IMG/VR virus record: IMGVR_UViG_3300032116_000621
Span: 1 to 37,076 of that record
DNA from: a virus
DNA: 37,076 bases
Strand: one strand, 5' to 3'
Every line of letters starts with the position of its first letter. Positions within the stretch are counted from its first letter, which is position 1. The notes under the pieces were generated by a model. That model was not told the origin of the DNA. It saw only the letters and a list, made by a program, of their open reading frames with translations, and searched no databases. Both the position numbers and the translations under genes were made by a program. This document shows positions 19,523 to 35,612 of this stretch, one piece after another.

Positions 19523-20881
19523 CTAAAGTTGTCTGGTTCCGCCACTGCGGTTGTCGTTAGCCGTAAGATAACAAACCGCGTAGCCGATGGCAGTCGTGAC
19601 GTGTTGATATCTTTTTGAATCGTCTTCTATATAATGGCCGCCGTCCTTGAGTTTGACAAGGCGAAGTCCCTCGTCCACCGTTGGCGCGGTTGAGTACACG
19701 GTAAGGCGCGACTCGTCCAAGGCGTTGCGACAGTGCGCATTGACCCGGTTGTGTCTCGTCCTTATCGGGGGGTTCGAGGACGGGACGGCGTAGGTGTGAC
19801 GGAGCCCCCGCGCCTGGAGATAACTAAGGATTATATCGTAATCTGACCTGTTGGACCGCGTGTCCCGGTTCTTCCCCGAGGCGTCACCACAGACGATATA
19901 GTTCCATTCCGACTTGAGAAGACCCCTGTTCTCCAGTTCCTCCATCACCTGACCCGTGTTGGCCCCGTCCAAGATGACTTCCCCGAAGACGTGGAAGTGG
20001 CGGCCCACGTACTGGAGAAGACACATCGACATGGGTTTTCCGTACCCAATGTTGAAGTCAAAGGCGAGGACCACAGGGGCCGACGGGTCAACCGTGTAAG
20101 GGGCCGTCGAATAGTTCCTCTCACGTGAATACTCGAAGTAGACGACCTCACCTTTGATCTCAACCCAAAGGCCGTCGAGGTAACGCTGGGCCTCCTTCGG
20201 CGAGAGGTCTTGACGGAGTTGACGGACGTAGGCCCTGTCGATGAAGGGATTGTCTTCCGTCTTGGAATAAAAGACTCGGCGACTGGCGAACTGGTCCGCC
20301 CCCTCGATGAAGTATTTATAAACCCAATTGTCGGGACTTGAGGGGTTAGTTGCGGCTACAAGAAAGTTCTGGCGGACATGGGAGAGACGACGAAGACGGG
20401 CCTTTAGTTGACGAAACGCCTCAGCGTCCTCGTCATCATTCTCGACAATCTCTTCGATAATGAGGCCTGAGAGTTTAAGAGAGCGGAACTTCGAGTAGCG
20501 TTTATCTGCCCATGACACACAGATAATCTCGGACCCGTTCTTAAAACGGATCATCGGCATGGACCGGTTCAACTCGTAATGGACACCCTCGATAAAGTCT
20601 TCGGACATGTGTTCGAGGATCTCATTCCAAATTGTCCTCTTAAGGTCCGGCAAACCACGGCGTCCAAGGGCCACTCTTGACCCCCGGTGTTCGACACAGT
20701 GACGGACTGCGACATGTGCCATAAGGGTTGACTTGGACGACCCGTAGGCTCCTGACAAAAGAATTTCAGGAGTTGAAAGTTCGTAGTCCCAATATTTAAG
20801 AGTCTTTAAAACTTGACGCTGGAAAGGAATAACATCCGGCGAAAAGGCACAAAATGTAGGCCTCGACGCCGGTGCGGTCAT
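19523..20881 (-). CDS. terL: Terminase large subunit (452 aa)
   Basis: This is the DNA packaging motor and headful or site-specific nuclease. The ATPase domain has Walker A GAYGSSKS (residues 44-51), a Walker B ending LIIEE (about 140-144) and the coupling string AATNPSS (176-182). The C-terminal RNase H-like nuclease has D275 (LAFDFN), D333 (VCGDASG) and D420/D421 (YIEDDSKRYQH). Length is normal. It lies 2 nt after the small terminase. The circularly closing genome fits headful packaging but does not prove it. Function is very secure from motifs. Confidence 0.95.
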   Translation of the reverse strand: MTAPASRPTFCAFSPDVIPFQRQVLKTLKYWDYELSTPEILLSGAYGSSKSTLMAHVAVRHCVEHRGSRVALGRRGLPDLKRTIWNEILEHMSEDFIEGVHYELNRSMPMIRFKNGSEIICVSWADKRYSKFRSLKLSGLIIEEIVENDDEDAEAFRQLKARLRRLSHVRQNFLVAATNPSSPDNWVYKYFIEGADQFASRRVFYSKTEDNPFIDRAYVRQLRQDLSPKEAQRYLDGLWVEIKGEVVYFEYSRERNYSTAPYTVDPSAPVVLAFDFNIGYGKPMSMCLLQYVGRHFHVFGEVILDGANTGQVMEELENRGLLKSEWNYIVCGDASGKNRDTRSNRSDYDIILSYLQARGLRHTYAVPSSNPPIRTRHNRVNAHCRNALDESRLTVYSTAPTVDEGLRLVKLKDGGHYIEDDSKRYQHVTTAIGYAVCYLTANDNRSGGTRQL

Positions 20882-20883
20882 AA

Positions 20884-21255
20884 TTAATCTTCAGTGTCTT
20901 TATAAGAAAGTTTAAACTCTGCCTTCTCGTCATCTGTCAAAGGCGGAACGTCTCTTGCCTCTGCCCACCTTTGACGAGTTTTAAGCCAAAACATTGTCAT
21001 CGCAGGAACTTTACCAGACACTGCAAGTTGATAAGCGGTTTTCATAACATTACCGGCGGCATTCTCGCGACCTTTTGATATGGCTTCAGCAATAGTAGGG
21101 TCGCGTTCTATCATGCGGTCTAATGTAACTGATGAAACACCCATAATGGTTGCAATCTGATTAAGGTTACAGCCGATGCCCGCGAGTTTTCCCGCTTGTT
21201 CTTTTTGAGCATCGGTCCACGTAATAAGTCCAGAGCCTTTAGGGCGTCCTGCCAT
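20884..21255 (-). CDS. terS: Terminase small subunit (123 aa)
   Basis: This is the DNA-recognition subunit of packaging. It begins MAGRPKGSGLITWTD and carries a helix-turn-helix (CNLNQIATIMGVSSVTLDRMIERD, given here as the region at residues 29-52), followed by a helical oligomerisation region and the string MTMFWLKTRQRWAEA, very common in small terminases. The start ATG at 21255 follows AAGGAAGA. It lies just before the large subunit. A bulged hairpin and an AT-rich stretch precede it in the 54-nt gap, which could be a promoter or part of a pac site; this is not decided by sequence. Confidence 0.85.
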   Translation of the reverse strand: MAGRPKGSGLITWTDAQKEQAGKLAGIGCNLNQIATIMGVSSVTLDRMIERDPTIAEAISKGRENAAGNVMKTAYQLAVSGKVPAMTMFWLKTRQRWAEARDVPPLTDDEKAEFKLSYKDTED

Positions 21256-21309: not shown

Positions 21310-21489
21310 TTAATCTTCTTTAATGAGAGACCTTGACTTACCTGTGATGATAAGAGACGACGCGAGATCAGGGATAAGGACAGTCTTCCACTTCCCCTTG
21401 ATCATGATCATCCCCTGTTTCAAGTCGATAGACTGAGGGAACCAGACGCGACGCCAAAAAATCATCCCGGGGGCTTTGTACTTAATCAA
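21310..21489 (-). CDS. Small basic protein (59 aa), third gene of exported cassette
   Basis: The supported start is TTG at 21489, six bases after a GAGGT site and overlapping the end of the collagen-like lipoprotein gene by 8 nt. A longer reading frame extends to 21591, but that part is out of frame with, and covered by, the lipoprotein gene. The protein begins MIKYKAPGMIFWRRVWFPQS and continues with strands (GMIMIKGKWKTVLIP; SSLIITGKSRSLIKED). It is basic, has no signal peptide and no motif I recognise. Translational coupling suggests it works with the two exported proteins or is a regulator or chaperone for them. Confidence 0.55.
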   Translation of the reverse strand: MIKYKAPGMIFWRRVWFPQSIDLKQGMIMIKGKWKTVLIPDLASSLIITGKSRSLIKED

Positions 21490-21811
21490 AGACGACCTCA
21501 CTTTGTTTTGCGTTGATACACTCGATAATTTCAGAGCGGACGTATAGACACAAGTCCTTATCCATCTTCGGCCCTGACTTAAGGTCAACACACTTCGTCC
21601 AAGTCATGAGTGCGGAAGCTGCACCGATACAAAGAGCGGGGGCCGGCTCTCCCGGGGGTCCGGGTTCTCCAGGTTGACCGGGTACACCCGGTTCTCCGGG
21701 ACTTCCCGGACTTCCGGGCGTGCCGGGCATCCCGTCGTCACCTTCGTTAGGGGTGAAAAATCCACAACCGGAAATGAGAAGGACCAAACAGACTGCAAAC
21801 AACTTTTTCAC
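21482..21811 (-). CDS. Collagen-like lipoprotein with four-cysteine C-terminus (109 aa)
   Basis: The N-terminus is a lipoprotein signal (MKKLFAVCLVLLISGC) with lipobox ISGC and acylated Cys16. Residues 24-56 are eleven Gly-X-Y triplets rich in Pro, a short collagen-like segment that may trimerise. The C-terminus has four cysteines (C61, C74, C88, C98) spaced 12, 13 and 9, suggesting a disulphide-stapled helical hairpin. The GTG start overlaps the protease stop by 4 nt behind AGGGGG. The mature protein should sit in the outer membrane or face the periplasm. A proline-rich small lipoprotein next to lysis genes could also be an outer-membrane spanin; the collagen repeat and cysteine domain make that uncertain. 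Confidence 0.8.
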   Translation of the reverse strand: MKKLFAVCLVLLISGCGFFTPNEGDDGMPGTPGSPGSPGEPGVPGQPGEPGPPGEPAPALCIGAASALMTWTKCVDLKSGPKMDKDLCLYVRSEIIECINAKQSEVVFD

Positions 21812-22752
21812 AGGTTACCCCCTGAGATTTTTTCGTAACACGCCGTCAAAGACTTCATAGCCTCACTACAGTGAAGAGGAGGCATGCCTTGACTAATACA
21901 CCCCTTGAGCGTCTCAAGGTGTTTCATGTTGTCCTTACACTCGACAGGGTCGGAAGGCGGGGCCGAGGATCCACAGTCGAGAGAGACGCCGCACAACTTC
22001 ACATTCTTGGACGTCTCATAAGACCGCGCAAACGAGATGAACTCAGGATGATTCGTCCGGTTGTAGTAGCTACACCCTCCGCCCCCGCGTGAGTTGACTC
22101 CGAGGACTTTAAACTGTGCTGTCTTCTTCCTGTCGTCCGACCACCGGAGAAGACTTCCACCTGAGTCCCCACCTCCGAGATTGGCTGGACCACAGGTGAC
22201 AATATCTTGACCCTGAACGTTTCGGACGTTAGCCGATCCCCAATGGTGGACCCTTACCGTCGGCGCGCCCAGTCCGTTAATGAGAAGTTTTTCACCTTGA
22301 GAAACCCCCGCGACAATATCAAACGACGCCATTTGTGTACCCTGCGGGACAGGGGAGGCGAGTTTACACAGCGCGTAATCATTATAGACGGTCCGGGTGT
22401 TATAGGCCGGATGGCGCGTACAGACGGCGGGAATAGCCGTCCCAGACCCCCGGTGGGAAAACGTGATGCGCGACCCGGTCGAGACACAGTGAGAGGCCGT
22501 GAAGAGAACTTGGGGGCCGACAAGTGTCCCGGTACAGTTTCCGATCCACCCCATGGGTTCGAATTCCCCGGGGACCGAACGCGTTCCGTTATAAACGAGA
22601 GTCGTCGGATTTTCTGCCACGTCCGCCAAAAGGAAAATCGGCGAGTTCGAGACATCATCCCACCCCCTGACTGTCTGACCGAATGCCTTTGACCAAATGT
22701 CGCCGAACAAGGCCGCCGTGAAAACGAGGACGAGTAGTGCTACCCTGAACAT
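21808..22752 (-). CDS. Secreted trypsin-like (S1 family) serine protease (314 aa)
   Basis: The protein has an N-terminal hydrophobic signal (FRVALLVLVFTAALFG) with probable cleavage near residue 25, followed by a chymotrypsin-fold protease. The triad is His88 (FTASHC), Asp125 (YNDYALCKL) and Ser197 (GGGDSGGS); Cys73 and Cys89 fit the conserved disulphide near the active His. The residue six before Ser197 is Asn191, so classical Lys/Arg trypsin specificity is not expected. A Pro/Ser linker leads to a C-terminal four-cysteine module (C272, C285, C295, C305). ATG at 22752 follows GAGGGTC. It is first in a coupled cassette and is divergent from the endolysin, suggesting a role in lysis, envelope change or competition. 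Such an enzyme is unusual in a phage of this size. Confidence 0.88.
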   Translation of the reverse strand: MFRVALLVLVFTAALFGDIWSKAFGQTVRGWDDVSNSPIFLLADVAENPTTLVYNGTRSVPGEFEPMGWIGNCTGTLVGPQVLFTASHCVSTGSRITFSHRGSGTAIPAVCTRHPAYNTRTVYNDYALCKLASPVPQGTQMASFDIVAGVSQGEKLLINGLGAPTVRVHHWGSANVRNVQGQDIVTCGPANLGGGDSGGSLLRWSDDRKKTAQFKVLGVNSRGGGGCSYYNRTNHPEFISFARSYETSKNVKLCGVSLDCGSSAPPSDPVECKDNMKHLETLKGCISQGMPPLHCSEAMKSLTACYEKISGGNL

Positions 22753-22818
22753 GAGAGACCCTCAGATATTTTTTGGACTGTTTTTCCTGACTTCAATCAT
22801 GCCTCGGGAGGATACGGC

Positions 22819-23235
22819 GTGTCAAAAAAACTGTGGGTTACCCCGGATGAGTATCTAAAGGGTCGCGATAAGACTTGGCCCCTTTCGCCTCAACAACGGG
22901 CTAACATGGGCCGCCTCCTTGAGGCCCTCCATAAGGCCCGTGAGGCCTACGGCGGGCCGTTTATCGTGACCTCCGGTTACCGGCCGGAAGGGATCAACCG
23001 CGAGATCGGCGGGGCCGTAAACTCCCTCCACATCCAGTGTCTCGCCGTCGATCTTGCCGACGCGTCGGGGGGCATGAAAAGATGGTTCGCGGATAAGAAC
23101 CGCCTTGAGGAATTCGGGTTCTGGATGGAATCCCCGATCTACACCCCGAAACACTGTCACCTCCAAATTGAACCCCCCAAGTCCGGGGCGAGGATCTTTG
23201 TCCCCGGTCGGAAACCTTGGCTTACGGGGGTCTAG
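22819..23235 (+). CDS. Endolysin, M15-type peptidase (138 aa)
   Basis: This is a zinc peptidase that cuts peptide links in peptidoglycan. The core is TSGYRPEGIN (residues 51-60), followed by the metal motif SLHIQCLAVD, giving ligands His71 and Asp78, and HCHLQIEP with His114. In the usual S-x-H-x-x-G-x-A-x-D motif the Gly is replaced by Cys75 here. Length and layout match short phage M15 peptidases with no separate binding domain and no signal peptide, so a holin is needed for release. The GTG start follows GGGAGG. It is the only plus-strand gene in this area and meets the resolvase gene tail to tail with a 4-nt overlap. Confidence 0.88.
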   Translation: MSKKLWVTPDEYLKGRDKTWPLSPQQRANMGRLLEALHKAREAYGGPFIVTSGYRPEGINREIGGAVNSLHIQCLAVDLADASGGMKRWFADKNRLEEFGFWMESPIYTPKHCHLQIEPPKSGARIFVPGRKPWLTGV

Positions 23236-24415: not shown

Positions 24416-25987
24416 GTGTCCCCTGTCGTTGCTTCATTTTCTGCCAAAATCCTCAAATATCATGGCCCCCAGTTTTCCCTGAGGCTAAACAAACTTCAGT
24501 ATCAAAAAGCCCCGATCTCTGACCCGGCCAAACTTTTCTTTTTGACCCTCGGCCACCCCAAGCCTGGAGGGGTGACGGACTTGGACCGGTTTGCCGCCGA
24601 AGTTGCGACAGACCTGACTCAAAGACTCGTCCAAGCCAAAGCAGATGAAACCGCAGAGGCCGAGGCGGCCATTGTGGACGAGATCCTAGATACCAAAAGT
24701 CTATTTGGGGCGGGGGCCGATCTCCCTTTGAGGGAAACCAAGATTTACCGAAACATTCACGGCGACAAATCGATCGTAGTTTGTCGAGGTCAAAAACTGA
24801 CTCTGTCTTGTGAGGCAGTAAAGTCTTCCCTATCGGCTCTCTTCAAAAAAACGAACTTCGCACATAGTTTTATCGTCGATCATACAGAGATTGCGACAGT
24901 CGAGTATAGTGTCCGGTCCCCGTTTATTTCGTCACGGGATGGGATGCTTTACGTGAATGAGTGGGCGCCCCCGCCTTGGACAAGTGACGAAACCGTTAAA
25001 CCCAAACCGATCGAAGTCGTCCCCGCCTCCTTCAACCTTTATGACGAGTTTATGAAAAAACTTTGTCTGACAGGCGAAGACCGTACCACAATTGAATCAT
25101 TTATGAGGGACTGCCTTTATCACAAAGCCCAGACGGCCCTTGTCATGATTTCCACCCCGGGGACGGGGAAAACGACACTGGCGCAAATTATCGGGGGGCT
25201 GGTCGGCCGAGACAACTGGATGCTTACCACTCAAAAAATGGGCGACACCCGGTTTGATTCAGGCCTGTTTAAAAAGGCCTACCTCTTTTTGGATGAAGTC
25301 CCTATCACCGAAGGCGTCGTCGAAAAGATCAAAGCATATCTTAATGATTACGTTGCTGCAGAACAGAAGTTTGTAAACCTTGAAAAGAATATCCGGTCAT
25401 TTGTTTCGATCATGTCGGCTATCAACCACGTCAAAAAGGTCCATTTCACTTTTAAGGACAGGAGGTTTAATACTCCCCAACTCCGTCGCGACGAAATCAC
25501 TATCCGAGACATGGATGAAAAACAAATCATAACACTCAAAGACTGGTCAGATGAAAATAGTCAGAGTTACAACCCTCAGTTCCTTAACGCGGTAGCTGAC
25601 TACCTCCTTAGAAATTACGTCGAAGGTTCTTCGCGCAAGGTTGTCAGAAACGCTGAGTTCAACAGGGTCTGTCTGAACAAGTATAAAAGATACCGCCACG
25701 AAAGGTTTCTTAAAGCCTGTCACTTGGGCGAGGAGTTTAACTCGAAGACGTTTAATATGAAGGGAGAGGCGGCGCGGTCGGCTAACATGACTATTGATGA
25801 GGTCTCGGATTTTATCACAGACTTTTTTGCCGACTCCAACAAAAACCTAGGTCAAGTATTTGCCAATGCCGCAGGTGGGTGGACGTTTAAACCTGCCAAA
25901 GATTTGAACCTTGGGTTCAGACCTGAAGAACTTAATTCCATCGGGTCCTTACCTGTGGCAGAAACCCCCTCCGACGTTTTGACCTGA
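24416..25987 (+). CDS. SF3-type replicative helicase (523 aa)
   Basis: This is the likely phage replicative helicase. The P-loop domain has Walker A STPGTGKTT (G249 to T254), Walker B AYLFLDEVP (D293, E294) and a motif C-like string FVSIMSAINH with Asn, the pattern of D5/SF3 phage helicases. The N-terminal 200 residues show no primase motifs I can recognise, though helicases of this group are often fused to primases. The GTG start has GGAGG at 24406-24410. It leads the plus-strand operon, next to polymerase. The C-terminal region after about residue 400 is helical and may bind DNA. Confidence 0.85.
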   Translation: MSPVVASFSAKILKYHGPQFSLRLNKLQYQKAPISDPAKLFFLTLGHPKPGGVTDLDRFAAEVATDLTQRLVQAKADETAEAEAAIVDEILDTKSLFGAGADLPLRETKIYRNIHGDKSIVVCRGQKLTLSCEAVKSSLSALFKKTNFAHSFIVDHTEIATVEYSVRSPFISSRDGMLYVNEWAPPPWTSDETVKPKPIEVVPASFNLYDEFMKKLCLTGEDRTTIESFMRDCLYHKAQTALVMISTPGTGKTTLAQIIGGLVGRDNWMLTTQKMGDTRFDSGLFKKAYLFLDEVPITEGVVEKIKAYLNDYVAAEQKFVNLEKNIRSFVSIMSAINHVKKVHFTFKDRRFNTPQLRRDEITIRDMDEKQIITLKDWSDENSQSYNPQFLNAVADYLLRNYVEGSSRKVVRNAEFNRVCLNKYKRYRHERFLKACHLGEEFNSKTFNMKGEAARSANMTIDEVSDFITDFFADSNKNLGQVFANAAGGWTFKPAKDLNLGFRPEELNSIGSLPVAETPSDVLT

Positions 25988-26006
25988 AACCTTTTGGCGG
26001 TGTCTT

Positions 26007-27998
26007 ATGAAGTTTTTGTTTTTGGATTTTGAATTCACGGGCGTAGCCGAACCTGATCTAAAACTTGTCTCATGTGCATGGGGATTAGGCGAAGGCGGGA
26101 AGATTGTAGAGAAAGGGACGGCATGGTTACACGGTCAAGGCGATCAAATTTACGAAAACAAACAAGCATTAATTACCAAAATTTATGGCTGTTTAGAACG
26201 GGGCTACACTCTTGTTTCCTACGTTTTGGAGGCGGAGATGCGTGCGATTCTGACCTTGGAACCTTATTTAGAACATGGCTCTGACTACAAATTTTTAAAA
26301 GAAGGCCCTTTAAAATTAAGCGCGTTTCACAGAGCTCTGGATATTTATCTAGAATACAGAAACATTCTCAACAGCAATCACTTCCTCAGTTATGGCGAGC
26401 AGTACATAGGTGGCAAGGTCATCAAGACAACTCCGCCGCCAAATAAGTGGGAAGTGGTAGACGGTGATGATGAAGACACACAACACCACAAGCCAGAGTA
26501 TTCCCTTGCTGCGGCGTGTTTTAAACTCATCGGCGTCAAAATTGACACGGAGGAGAAAGATAGGATCCGAGGAATTATTATCCGGGGAGACGCCGAAGAA
26601 ATAGAACGCCACAAAAAGGAAATTCTCAAATATAACGAGTCGGACATTGTCTACCTGTATGACCTTCTCAAGACGATCTCCAGACACTATGAGTTGTGTG
26701 GGAAAAGGCGGACTTGGTTTAAGGATGCTTTGAATCGCGGTAATTTCTCCATAGACACGGCCCATATGGTCCGATGTGGTTACCCTGTTAACGTAAGTGA
26801 GTTGAGAAAGTTTGCCGCCGCGTCAAAAGAGATCATGTCCGAAGTCGCCAAAGCAGTTAACGACTCCGGCGTTTGGACTTTCCGCGCGGATGGGTCGATG
26901 GACCAAAAGGCTGTCAAAACATGGGTTGAAAAGTTTGTCGCGGAAAAAGGTATTAAGACTTGGCGGCGGACACCCAAGGGCGAACTTTCAATTTCTAAGG
27001 ATGCTTTTGGGGACTTTAAAAAAGCGGTCGAGGAAACCCCTTTCGGTGCGGCCTTCCGAGAGTATCTAAGTACAAAACAATCCCTTAATGGGTTTCTCCC
27101 CCCGCGTGAAGGGTCGAAACGCAAAAAGACTTTTTGGGACTTCCTCGGATCAGACGGGAGGGTCCGCCCACACTTCGGAATCTTCGGGTCTCAAACCTCG
27201 CGGAGTCAGCCAGCGTCCACGGGGTTCATGTTTCTCAAAGCCAAGTGGATGAGGTATTTTGTCGAACCTCCACCGGGAAGTTTTCTTATCGAGGTGGACT
27301 ATTCGTCGCAAGAGTTTTTGATCGCGGCCATTATTTCTCAAGACAAGAAAATGATGAACGCCTACGAGTCTGGAGATGTGTACCTTGCGTTTGCCAAGGA
27401 CGCTGGTCTAGTTCCGAAAAATGGTGAGCGAAAGGATTACGAAGACCAGAGAAAACTCTGTAAAGGTATCGTCCTAGGTGTCTCTTATGACATGTCCGCC
27501 AAAGGTCTCGCCCCAAGAATCGGCAAAACTGAAAAGGAAGCCCAATCTTTGATCAACAAATTTTATGAAGCCTACCCCGACTATGCCGCGTGGAAGAAAA
27601 AAACAATCGAAGAGTACCGGACGGCCGGTCATCTTGAACTGTCGGATGGTTGGATGTTGGGTCCACACAATGACAACATGAGAAGCGTCGGTAATTTCCC
27701 GATCCAGGGACACGGGGCCGTTATCATGAGACATGCCGTAAGGAGCCTTTTTCGGGCAAAGATCCATGTCGCTTTTACTGTTCACGACTCTATAGTTTGC
27801 GAGATAAATCAAAGAAGACCAGAAAAGTGTGTTGAAGATATAAAATTTCTTATGAACCTTGCTTTCACGCAAGTTATGTCCGCGTTTGGCGAGACCCGTA
27901 AAGTTCGGATGGATGCCAAGGTGTGGGGAGGCGGTAAAAGATACGTCGCCGAAGGGGCCGAAAAACAACTTGCCCGCTACAAAAAGTATTTCTCTTGA
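26007..27998 (+). CDS. Family A DNA polymerase with 3'-5' exonuclease (663 aa)
   Basis: This is the replicative polymerase. The exonuclease domain has D7-x-E9 (LDFEFTG) and Y209-x3-D213 (YNESD). The polymerase domain has motif A IEVDYSSQEF (D431), the O-helix R482...K486 followed by Leu490 and Y494 (RKLCKGIVLGVSYD), and motif C FTVHDSI (D594). Aligned to E. coli Pol I, position 762 is Leu, the Gly after Tyr766 is Asp, and the HDE of motif C is HDS. Length fits exonuclease plus polymerase without a 5' nuclease. The start is ATG at 26007 with a weak GGCGG site, 19 nt after the helicase stop. Confidence 0.94.
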   Translation: MKFLFLDFEFTGVAEPDLKLVSCAWGLGEGGKIVEKGTAWLHGQGDQIYENKQALITKIYGCLERGYTLVSYVLEAEMRAILTLEPYLEHGSDYKFLKEGPLKLSAFHRALDIYLEYRNILNSNHFLSYGEQYIGGKVIKTTPPPNKWEVVDGDDEDTQHHKPEYSLAAACFKLIGVKIDTEEKDRIRGIIIRGDAEEIERHKKEILKYNESDIVYLYDLLKTISRHYELCGKRRTWFKDALNRGNFSIDTAHMVRCGYPVNVSELRKFAAASKEIMSEVAKAVNDSGVWTFRADGSMDQKAVKTWVEKFVAEKGIKTWRRTPKGELSISKDAFGDFKKAVEETPFGAAFREYLSTKQSLNGFLPPREGSKRKKTFWDFLGSDGRVRPHFGIFGSQTSRSQPASTGFMFLKAKWMRYFVEPPPGSFLIEVDYSSQEFLIAAIISQDKKMMNAYESGDVYLAFAKDAGLVPKNGERKDYEDQRKLCKGIVLGVSYDMSAKGLAPRIGKTEKEAQSLINKFYEAYPDYAAWKKKTIEEYRTAGHLELSDGWMLGPHNDNMRSVGNFPIQGHGAVIMRHAVRSLFRAKIHVAFTVHDSIVCEINQRRPEKCVEDIKFLMNLAFTQVMSAFGETRKVRMDAKVWGGGKRYVAEGAEKQLARYKKYFS

Positions 27999-33720: not shown

Positions 33721-33954
33721 ATGGATACACCCCGCGAAGAAATCATCCGCCAAGTATTTATCGCTGCAGTTTCTGGAGCGATTTTATGGTTTGTGTCTTC
33801 GGTCAGGGGTGATATCCGCGAGATGACTAATTCAATCTCCAACCTAAACATTCAGATTCATACTCTCGTCGAGAGAACGTCTGGGTACCACAAAAGGGTT
33901 GAAGAACATGAACAACGGATACGTGAGCTTGAATCGCGGCGACAGGGACGGTGA
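33721..33954 (+). CDS. Membrane-anchored coiled-coil protein, lysis candidate (77 aa)
   Basis: The protein has a short cytoplasmic N-end, one membrane segment (VFIAAVSGAILWFVSSV, about residues 12-28) and a coiled coil with heptad-like spacing (EMTNSISNLNIQIHTLVER; KRVEEHEQRIRELESRR). This form fits an inner-membrane spanin (Rz-like) or an XhlA-like lysis accessory. No Shine-Dalgarno precedes the ATG. The next gene starts inside it. Together with the following membrane protein gene it makes a plausible lysis group, although the endolysin lies 11 kb away. Confidence 0.6.
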   Translation: MDTPREEIIRQVFIAAVSGAILWFVSSVRGDIREMTNSISNLNIQIHTLVERTSGYHKRVEEHEQRIRELESRRQGR

Positions 33955-34135
33955 ACCCTTCGCGGAACTTGTCGAGGTTTCTCTCGTCGAGGATCATTTG
34001 GCGTGGCTTCGCGCCCACCTTGAAGGGAAGTACAATATCGATATCGGAGAATTAACAGAATTTATAGAGGAGTCAGTCCATGGGCGCGCTTGCCATTATT
34101 TCCTTGATCGTGTCAATCGTTCGGGCAATCCCTGA
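33908..34135 (+). CDS. Small acidic protein overlapping both neighbours (75 aa)
   Basis: ATG at 33908, behind AAGGGTTGAAG, starts a frame overlapping the preceding gene by 47 nt and the next by 56 nt, both in other frames. The middle (FAELVEVSLVEDHLAWLRAHLEGKYNIDIGEL, at about residues 17-48) looks like a real helical protein, and it is the only open frame filling 33955-34079. A short start at 33899 (TTG) is possible. Function is unknown. The double overlap makes this less certain than its neighbours. Confidence 0.5.
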   Translation: MNNGYVSLNRGDRDGEPFAELVEVSLVEDHLAWLRAHLEGKYNIDIGELTEFIEESVHGRACHYFLDRVNRSGNP

Positions 34136-34325
34136 CTTTATCGCTCTCGTCAATTTTATCCTCGCCCTTATCCGTAAAGGCGATAAGGCTAAGATGAAGG
34201 AGCGTCGTCAGAGACTTTATGAATTCCTCAAGGAAGCTCGGTCCACTCATGACTACTCCAAACTGGGAACCCGTCTTGAACTGATGAAGCGGGAACTTGA
34301 AAAGGAAATGGAGTCAGAACTCTAA
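34080..34325 (+). CDS. Holin-like small membrane protein (81 aa)
   Basis: ATG at 34080 follows GAGGAG. The first 33 residues contain two short hydrophobic runs (ALAIISLIVSIVRAI; DFIALVNFILALIRK) separated by Pro-Asp, followed by a highly charged helical C-terminus (KMKERRQRLYEFLKEA; KRELEKEMESEL). Size, hydrophobic hairpin and charged tail suit a holin or pinholin; a spanin-like role is an alternative. It ends the plus-strand run and meets a convergent hairpin terminator. Confidence 0.55.
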   Translation: MGALAIISLIVSIVRAIPDFIALVNFILALIRKGDKAKMKERRQRLYEFLKEARSTHDYSKLGTRLELMKRELEKEMESEL

Positions 34326-34664: not shown

Positions 34665-35612
34665 CTATTCCTCCATGAGATTTAAAACCGGTGTCCAATT
34701 GTAGCCTTCGATAACGGCGTGAAGCAAATCCACGGCCGGGGTTTCAAGGTTGGTCTTTCCGTCCGGTGTCTCCCACGACCCGCACCGTTGATGACGGTAT
34801 TCCCACTCGTTTGGGCGGTAACTTTTTACCCACGCGTCAAGTCCACCTTGTCCACAGTACCAATCGATAAGTGGCATGCCGTAACCCGAGGCGGCGTTAC
34901 ACCAGCGTCCACGTTCGCGTGGAGAGGGTCCGAGACCGAGGTTATCCATCGTCCGGATGGACTGATACCCGAGGTGGATACGGAAACACGCGGCCTTTGA
35001 GGCGGCAACCGCGCGCGCCCATCCCTCGAGTTGTAACATAAATGCATCATTTCTAGTGTCTGAGGGTTTGGAATGGAGATCCATCCGCCACGCGAGACCT
35101 TCTAAGAGGTAGTTAAATCCGGGCGGGAGGGTCACCCCCGCGCGAGGGTTTAGAGTCCCTGTGTCTGAGACAAGGGCGAGGTGTTCCGCGACCCAGTTTT
35201 GCCAGACTTCTTTGGCCCAACTACACCTTGAGAGTTGGGAAGAAATCCCCCGGTAAATACCGATCGCCCCGTCGAGAGAAATCTTGTCGGGTAAAGTAGG
35301 GTGACGAAACAAAACGCCCCCGTTTAGAGAATCTCTTAGACCTTCTGCGTAACCCCGGGCCTCGTCGTCACAAGGGAGGGAGGCGAGAAGAATCCCGGAC
35401 CATATGAGACTATCCCCCGTGTGTTCCAGACGGTCTGGGAAGCGGGAGACGACCCAAGGAGAAGGTTCTAGAAACCGGGGAAGACGAGCGCGGTATTCTT
35501 CATAGACGGCGCGGACAGAGTCGTCCGGGTTTGAGGTCTCCGGTTTGACGGCCGGAGACCCACAGGCGGTCAGGAGAAAAATAAGGGCCGAAACTATTCC
35601 CCTTGATTTCAT
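34665..35612 (-). CDS. Lipoprotein of unknown function next to fibre gene (315 aa)
   Basis: The N-terminus is a bacterial lipoprotein signal with lipobox LLTAC (Cys17, followed by Gly). The mature part is helical with many Trp and several Cys (DGAIGIYRGISSQLSRCSWAKEVW split across repeats of helices; FNYLLEGLAWRMDLH; WCNAASGYGMPLIDWYCGQGG). The general look recalls all-helical toroid glycosidase-like proteins, but I see no catalytic motif. It begins 2 nt after the fibre stop and should be exported to the envelope. By analogy with phage lipoproteins that block receptors, superinfection exclusion is a possible role. Confidence 0.6.
   Translation of the reverse strand: MKSRGIVSALIFLLTACGSPAVKPETSNPDDSVRAVYEEYRARLPRFLEPSPWVVSRFPDRLEHTGDSLIWSGILLASLPCDDEARGYAEGLRDSLNGGVLFRHPTLPDKISLDGAIGIYRGISSQLSRCSWAKEVWQNWVAEHLALVSDTGTLNPRAGVTLPPGFNYLLEGLAWRMDLHSKPSDTRNDAFMLQLEGWARAVAASKAACFRIHLGYQSIRTMDNLGLGPSPRERGRWCNAASGYGMPLIDWYCGQGGLDAWVKSYRPNEWEYRHQRCGSWETPDGKTNLETPAVDLLHAVIEGYNWTPVLNLMEE

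Follow-up and report, generated by a model that had tools for sequence, protein, structure and literature searches.

A phage gene cassette encoding a predicted exported S1 protease and a collagen-like lipoprotein

Layout of the cassette and features of its products

The window, i.e., the whole stretch of DNA that was analyzed, corresponds to one complete virus record of IMG/VR (37,076 bases). Its matches to tape measure and tail tube proteins indicate a long-tailed phage, which an earlier note made from the sequence alone had called a siphovirus. Three open reading frames (ORFs) on the minus strand were found exactly where that note had placed them, and their overlaps were reproduced as well (Table 1). 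The TGA stop of the protease gene and the GTG start of the lipoprotein gene overlap by 4 nt (GTGA), and the TTG start of the 59-aa gene lies inside the lipoprotein gene (8-nt overlap). Each of the three starts is preceded by a purine-rich Shine-Dalgarno-like stretch. Pfam and PHROG matches show that the terminase genes come directly downstream of the cassette and that the M15 endolysin gene diverges from it, with 67 bases between the endolysin and protease starts. After the cassette, the same strand carries TerS, TerL, a portal-like protein, and then structural genes. The consensus scan that yielded the candidate promoter gave 6 matches in the region against 2.4 expected. PADLOC returned no match.

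Table 1. Cassette genes and other features of the window
Feature	Position	Strand	Characteristics
S1 protease gene (predicted)	22752..21808	-	ATG start, 314 aa; Pfam Trypsin
Collagen-like lipoprotein gene	21811..21482	-	GTG start, 109 aa; Pfam Collagen and lipobox
Small protein gene	21489..21310	-	TTG start, 59 aa; 41% identity in L002
Terminase small subunit	20884..21255	-	PHROG 309, 1.3e-12; context
Terminase large subunit	19523..20881	-	Pfam Terminase_3, 4.8e-17; PHROG 2, 7.5e-34; context
M15 peptidase endolysin	22819..23235	+	Pfam Peptidase_M15_3, 1.4e-15; PHROG endolysin, 5.5e-14; not in cassette
Candidate sigma-70-like promoter, TTGACA-18-CATGAT	22796..22825	-	Consensus scan; ahead of cassette
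77-aa single-TM and coiled-coil protein	33721-33954	+	Conserved in L002; holin or inner-membrane spanin candidate
81-aa hydrophobic protein	34080-34325	+	Conserved in L002; holin or inner-membrane spanin candidate

In Pfam, the protease matches Trypsin alone (PF00089; 1.3e-13, 51.7 bits, the cut-off being 20.6), and PDB trypsins align to it at about 7e-6. The same family is matched by the homologues found in three other phage contigs (L002, L006, and L050, described below). In an alignment of all four proteins, H88, D125, S197, and the GGGDSGG motif, which includes GDSGG, are invariant, in agreement with the intact catalytic triad claimed previously. The hydrophobic N terminus (KD 2.9) forms a signal sequence of about residues 1-26 without a lipobox, and of the 12 cysteines of the protein, the last four belong to a C-terminal tail. 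The AlphaFold model, built on an alignment of three sequences, is of low confidence (pLDDT 40). As judged from these features, the phage probably encodes an exported serine protease of predicted S1 (trypsin/chymotrypsin) fold. It resembles bacterial proteases of MEROPS S1/PF00089 in its predicted fold family, His-Asp-Ser triad, signal peptide, and predicted disulfides, but differs from them in being phage encoded and in its extra Cys-rich C-terminal tail. A further difference is that trypsin position 189 appears, in our own alignment, to be Asn (N191), and a trypsin-type preference for Lys/Arg is therefore not expected.

The lipoprotein begins with the signal MKKLFAVCLVLLISGC, with lipobox ISGC at C16, an assignment made by pattern and hydropathy only; both proteins thus carry the export signals that the earlier note had attributed to them. 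It matches Pfam Collagen (PF01391; 4.6e-7, 30.0 bits against a cut-off of 27.2) through 11 uninterrupted Gly-X-Y triplets (residues 24-56), which are followed by a C-terminal head with four cysteines. Given the collagen rise of 0.286 nm per residue, this 33-residue rod would measure about 9 nm if triple-helical. A search with the head returned L002 as the sole match. Such Gly-X-Y segments are also found in bacterial collagen-like proteins (Scl; Burkholderia, PMC4565658), from which the window version differs in being very short, lipid anchored, phage encoded, and coupled to a protease. The four-cysteine tails of the protease and the lipoprotein, which have a similar spacing (C-x12-C...C-x9-C), were also compared with each other, and homology between them was not supported (hhalign probability of 0.3%, shuffles not significant).

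Phage tail fibers often contain collagen repeats, and the cassette is the first element of the structural operon, as might be expected if its products were virion components, e.g., in head maturation or associated with the tail, rather than envelope factors. We consider this highly unlikely, since the protease and the lipoprotein carry a signal peptide and a lipobox, respectively. Moreover, a collagen search of viral contigs returned mostly long fiber-like proteins rather than lipoproteins, and nearly all of the other collagen-bearing ORFs found were longer than the window lipoprotein and had no lipobox.

The third product has neither a signal sequence nor a transmembrane (TM) segment, has no Pfam or PHROG family match, and found its only match in L002; its model is beta-rich and of low confidence (pLDDT 47). 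Its TTG start, part of the earlier description, is supported by an ATG start at the aligned position in L002.

Conservation of the cassette in a related phage

Contig L002 (IMGVR_UViG_3300042691_030506; 37,222 bases) corresponds to the window gene by gene over almost its whole length and keeps the cassette order, with identities over full alignments of 67% for the protease, 52% for the lipoprotein, and 41% for the 59-aa protein; its divergent endolysin is 75% identical to that of the window. The L002 lipoprotein has a VTAC lipobox and 10 triplets, and its Pfam Collagen score (25.4) falls just under the cut-off of 27.2. Spacing is as tight as in the window: the protease and lipoprotein genes share ATGA, the lipoprotein start has a clear GGAGG, and the 59-aa gene starts a few bases past the lipoprotein stop. 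Synonymous differences between the two phages are saturated across the three genes (pS of 0.78 to 0.85, the lowest value being that of the 59-aa gene), while pN is 0.24 for the protease, 0.35 for the lipoprotein, and 0.40 for the 59-aa gene, which indicates purifying selection on all three. Together with the conserved order, this selection argues that the cassette is real and linked.

The surroundings of the cassette have changed more. A ParB/DNA methyltransferase fusion gene (L002:11337-12485, plus strand) lies between the cassette and TerS in L002 and is absent at the matching place in the window, and the TerS that follows differs from that of the window; the cassette thus stayed together while its neighbors were replaced. 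A gene similar to this fusion is found in L003, a 9.8-kb fragment that shares 45% terminase identity with the window. There, the ParB-type methyltransferase and terminase genes adjoin a collagen-like lipoprotein gene (lipobox LISC, 9 triplets) located at the contig edge and running off its end (L003:1-491, minus strand). The fragment contains no protease, so collagen-like lipoproteins can exist without it, at least in L003.

The protease beside other lipoproteins

Pattern scans over 2.9 million viral contigs added two protease homologues to that of L002, bringing the further phage contigs with the protease to three only, all metagenomic. In L006 (IMGVR_UViG_3300020180_000084), the protease (L006:4977-5936) is 43% identical to that of the window (45% over the matched part) and is directly followed by the gene of a lipoprotein of 284 aa; between 2.6 and 4.6 kb further on come a holin-like gene, a second lipoprotein gene, and an M15 endolysin gene. 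Apart from the protease, L006 has in common with the window a partial endolysin match, one structural-domain match, and a weak lipoprotein similarity, and nothing in it matches the terminase of the window. In L050 (IMGVR_UViG_3300043411_000609), the protease (L050:5452-6375) is 40% identical (48% over 225 aa), and the compared stretch otherwise shares one tail protein with the window. The gene order is reversed here: a 142-aa Pro-rich lipoprotein (lipobox LAAC, PMPPPTPIPAPPPED), whose gene comes after two small membrane-protein genes, overlaps the protease start by 10 nt. Just before these lysis-like genes, L050 also carries an ORF with a long run of Gly-Tyr-Ser-Asp repeats (GNGYGSGYGSG...; L050:4135-4407, plus strand), which lies on a short-period DNA repeat.

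The collagen profile had no match in L006 or L050. As for the gene order, whose recurrence in other phages the earlier note had made a test of its proposal, all three genes stand together in L002, whereas the collagen-like gene and the 59-aa gene are missing from L006 and L050. Of the two findings that would speak against the proposal, an inactive triad and a host-derived moron without conserved linkage, neither was encountered where comparison was possible: the triad is intact and L002 keeps the linkage. The protease thus has an adjacent lipoprotein gene in three lineages, with three lipoprotein families, so that the recurring unit is the protease plus an adjacent lipoprotein, the collagen rod being one version of it. 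Assuming 2 lipobox genes per 34 to 51 genes, as obtained with a simple gene caller and a lipobox pattern, such adjacency would arise by chance with probabilities of 0.08, 0.12, and 0.09 in the three lineages, or about 0.0008 jointly in this post hoc calculation. Unlike those of the window and L002, the protease signal sequences of L006 (VFSC) and L050 (LMSC) contain a lipobox-like cysteine; these proteases might be lipid anchored themselves, and anchoring may differ by lineage. The window also encodes, at 34665-35612 on the minus strand, a 315-aa lipoprotein with an LTAC lipobox and no Pfam match, which is about 51% identical in L002 and bears a weak resemblance (27% over 66 aa) to the lipoprotein encoded after the protease in L006.

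A tblastn search of 50,697 named phage records gave no match to the protease even at E 5, to which search filters may contribute. Two limited scans of bacterial genomes yielded no homologue, and no match was found in plasmids. The trypsin family as such occurs in 11 of 14 control bacterial genomes, which would suit a host- or biofilm-directed moron, i.e., a protease that digests matrix or outside proteins and so aids progeny diffusion or the host, with the lipoprotein as a separate surface protein. The collagen-like lipoprotein found without a protease in the L003 fragment also fits this explanation, but the repeated adjacency in three lineages and the retention of the pair in L002 argue against it, and we regard it as unlikely.

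Candidate roles at the host envelope

The earlier note had suggested that the exported proteins act on the host envelope at lysis, remodel the surface to stop adsorption, or free progeny from surface matrix. Gene context favors the first of these functions, since endolysin, holin-like, and small membrane-protein genes are found nearby. The recurrence of the same protease by a different lipoprotein in unrelated phages suggests a protease-lipoprotein pair. We therefore lean, tentatively and a little short of calling it probable, toward a functional pair that is exported late, weakens the host envelope, and helps lysis and progeny release. The protease would leave the cytoplasm via its signal peptide and fold, stabilized by disulfides, in the periplasm or outside. 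The lipoprotein would be held by its lipid, and its collagen triplets would form a rigid trimeric rod that keeps the four-cysteine head off the membrane. The head may then dock or restrain the protease near its substrate, or the protease may cut the head and set it free. The steps inferred here are export, assembly into trimers, physical pairing, late timing, and action at lysis. The conserved cassette order beside the endolysin and the overlapping genes are consistent with pairing; a fixed molecular partnership would be putative, because the partner lipoproteins differ and, as far as could be seen, share no homology between lineages. The reversed gene order in L050 also speaks against the proposal, as does the endolysin, which is encoded on the other strand while the cassette stands first in the structural operon, so that these genes do not form one lysis transcript.

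The main rival to this lysis role is superinfection exclusion, in which an anchored or secreted protease would remove or mask a receptor such that other phages and progeny fail to adsorb to infected cells or debris. Receptor-blocking phage lipoproteins of the T5 Llp type are known. Like Llp, the window product is a phage-encoded lipoprotein that would reside in the host envelope; Llp, however, acts by binding its receptor, whereas the window lipoprotein is coupled to an exported protease. An exported protease together with a rod anchored at the surface would fit such a function, and the protease moves among phage lineages like an accessory gene. Nevertheless, the neighbors of the cassette are late/structural and endolysin genes, not early ones, and one would need to postulate a receptor shared by phages whose other genes are largely unrelated. 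Overall, we find this explanation rather unlikely. If it were correct, the system would represent a proteolytic form of superinfection exclusion, and either role would add to phages an enzyme class, the signal-bearing S1 protease, without a homologue found among the named phage records searched.

Another explanation starts from the lipoprotein, which is small and Pro-rich (14 Pro in 109 aa) and might be an outer-membrane spanin subunit (o-spanin-like), with the 77-aa or the 81-aa protein of Table 1 as its inner-membrane partner and the protease as an unrelated neighbor. The Pro-rich lipoprotein of L050, preceded by small membrane-protein genes, and the small TM coiled-coil genes present in both the window and the L002 contig are in line with it. 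However, the lipoprotein has no PHROG spanin match, no collagen is found in L006 or L050, and we know of no spanin described with collagen triplets or a four-cysteine head. Its gene is flanked by those of the predicted exported protease and the 59-aa protein, which has no TM segment, and not by that of an inner-membrane partner. About 11 kb separates the candidate partner genes from the lipoprotein gene, and likewise from the endolysin gene, compared to about 1 kb for the widest two-component spanin pair in a survey of phage genomes (PMC6139136). Overall, we consider this assignment distinctly improbable. Thus, although the lipoprotein resembles those of two-component spanins (Rz/Rz1; PMC6139136) as a short Pro-rich phage lipoprotein near lysis genes, it differs from them in having no adjacent inner-membrane partner, as well as in its collagen triplets, four-cysteine head, and protease neighbor.

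No two-component spanin was recognized by sequence in the window. In the same survey, spanins were not identified in about 13% of phage genomes, in which outer-membrane breakage is an open question, and lipoproteins were rare (PMC6139136); a protease-coupled lipoprotein is notable against this background. As a more specific and frankly speculative form of the lysis role, which we think unlikely, an exported S1 protease on a lipid-anchored rod (collagen or polyproline) might replace or assist spanins in some phages of Gram-negative hosts. If so, phages without findable spanins would open the outer membrane proteolytically, and an exported phage protease that recurs by a lipoprotein gene offers a concrete, testable candidate for this route.

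The closest parallel that we considered is Mtz-Tim of Listeria monocytogenes, a secreted metzincin with an adjacent TIMP-like lipoprotein of phage origin, which increases lysis by phage and the release of virions about 5-fold, provided that the protease is active (PMC8235301). In both systems, the gene of a secreted protease adjoins that of a lipoprotein, in association with phage, and sensitization to phage lysis has been shown for Mtz-Tim. In contrast to the window pair, Mtz-Tim comprises a metalloprotease instead of an S1 serine protease, has no collagen repeat, functions in a Gram-positive host, and resides in a chromosomal phage-remnant locus with CI/Cro-like control instead of a complete phage. 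Given its S1 family, the window pair is not a member of Mtz-Tim, yet by analogy it may work like it with unrelated proteins.

Concerning the host, the window DNA polymerase is closest to that of a Silvanigrella phage (31%, E 3e-47), the next among the matches listed being far weaker; this gives a weak hint of a Bdellovibrionota host, hence of an outer membrane. The DNA polymerase and the primase/helicase (window 24416-27998) are 92 to 95% identical to their L002 counterparts, whereas genes outside this replication module are mostly 42 to 85% identical; the module has either been exchanged recently or diverged much more slowly.
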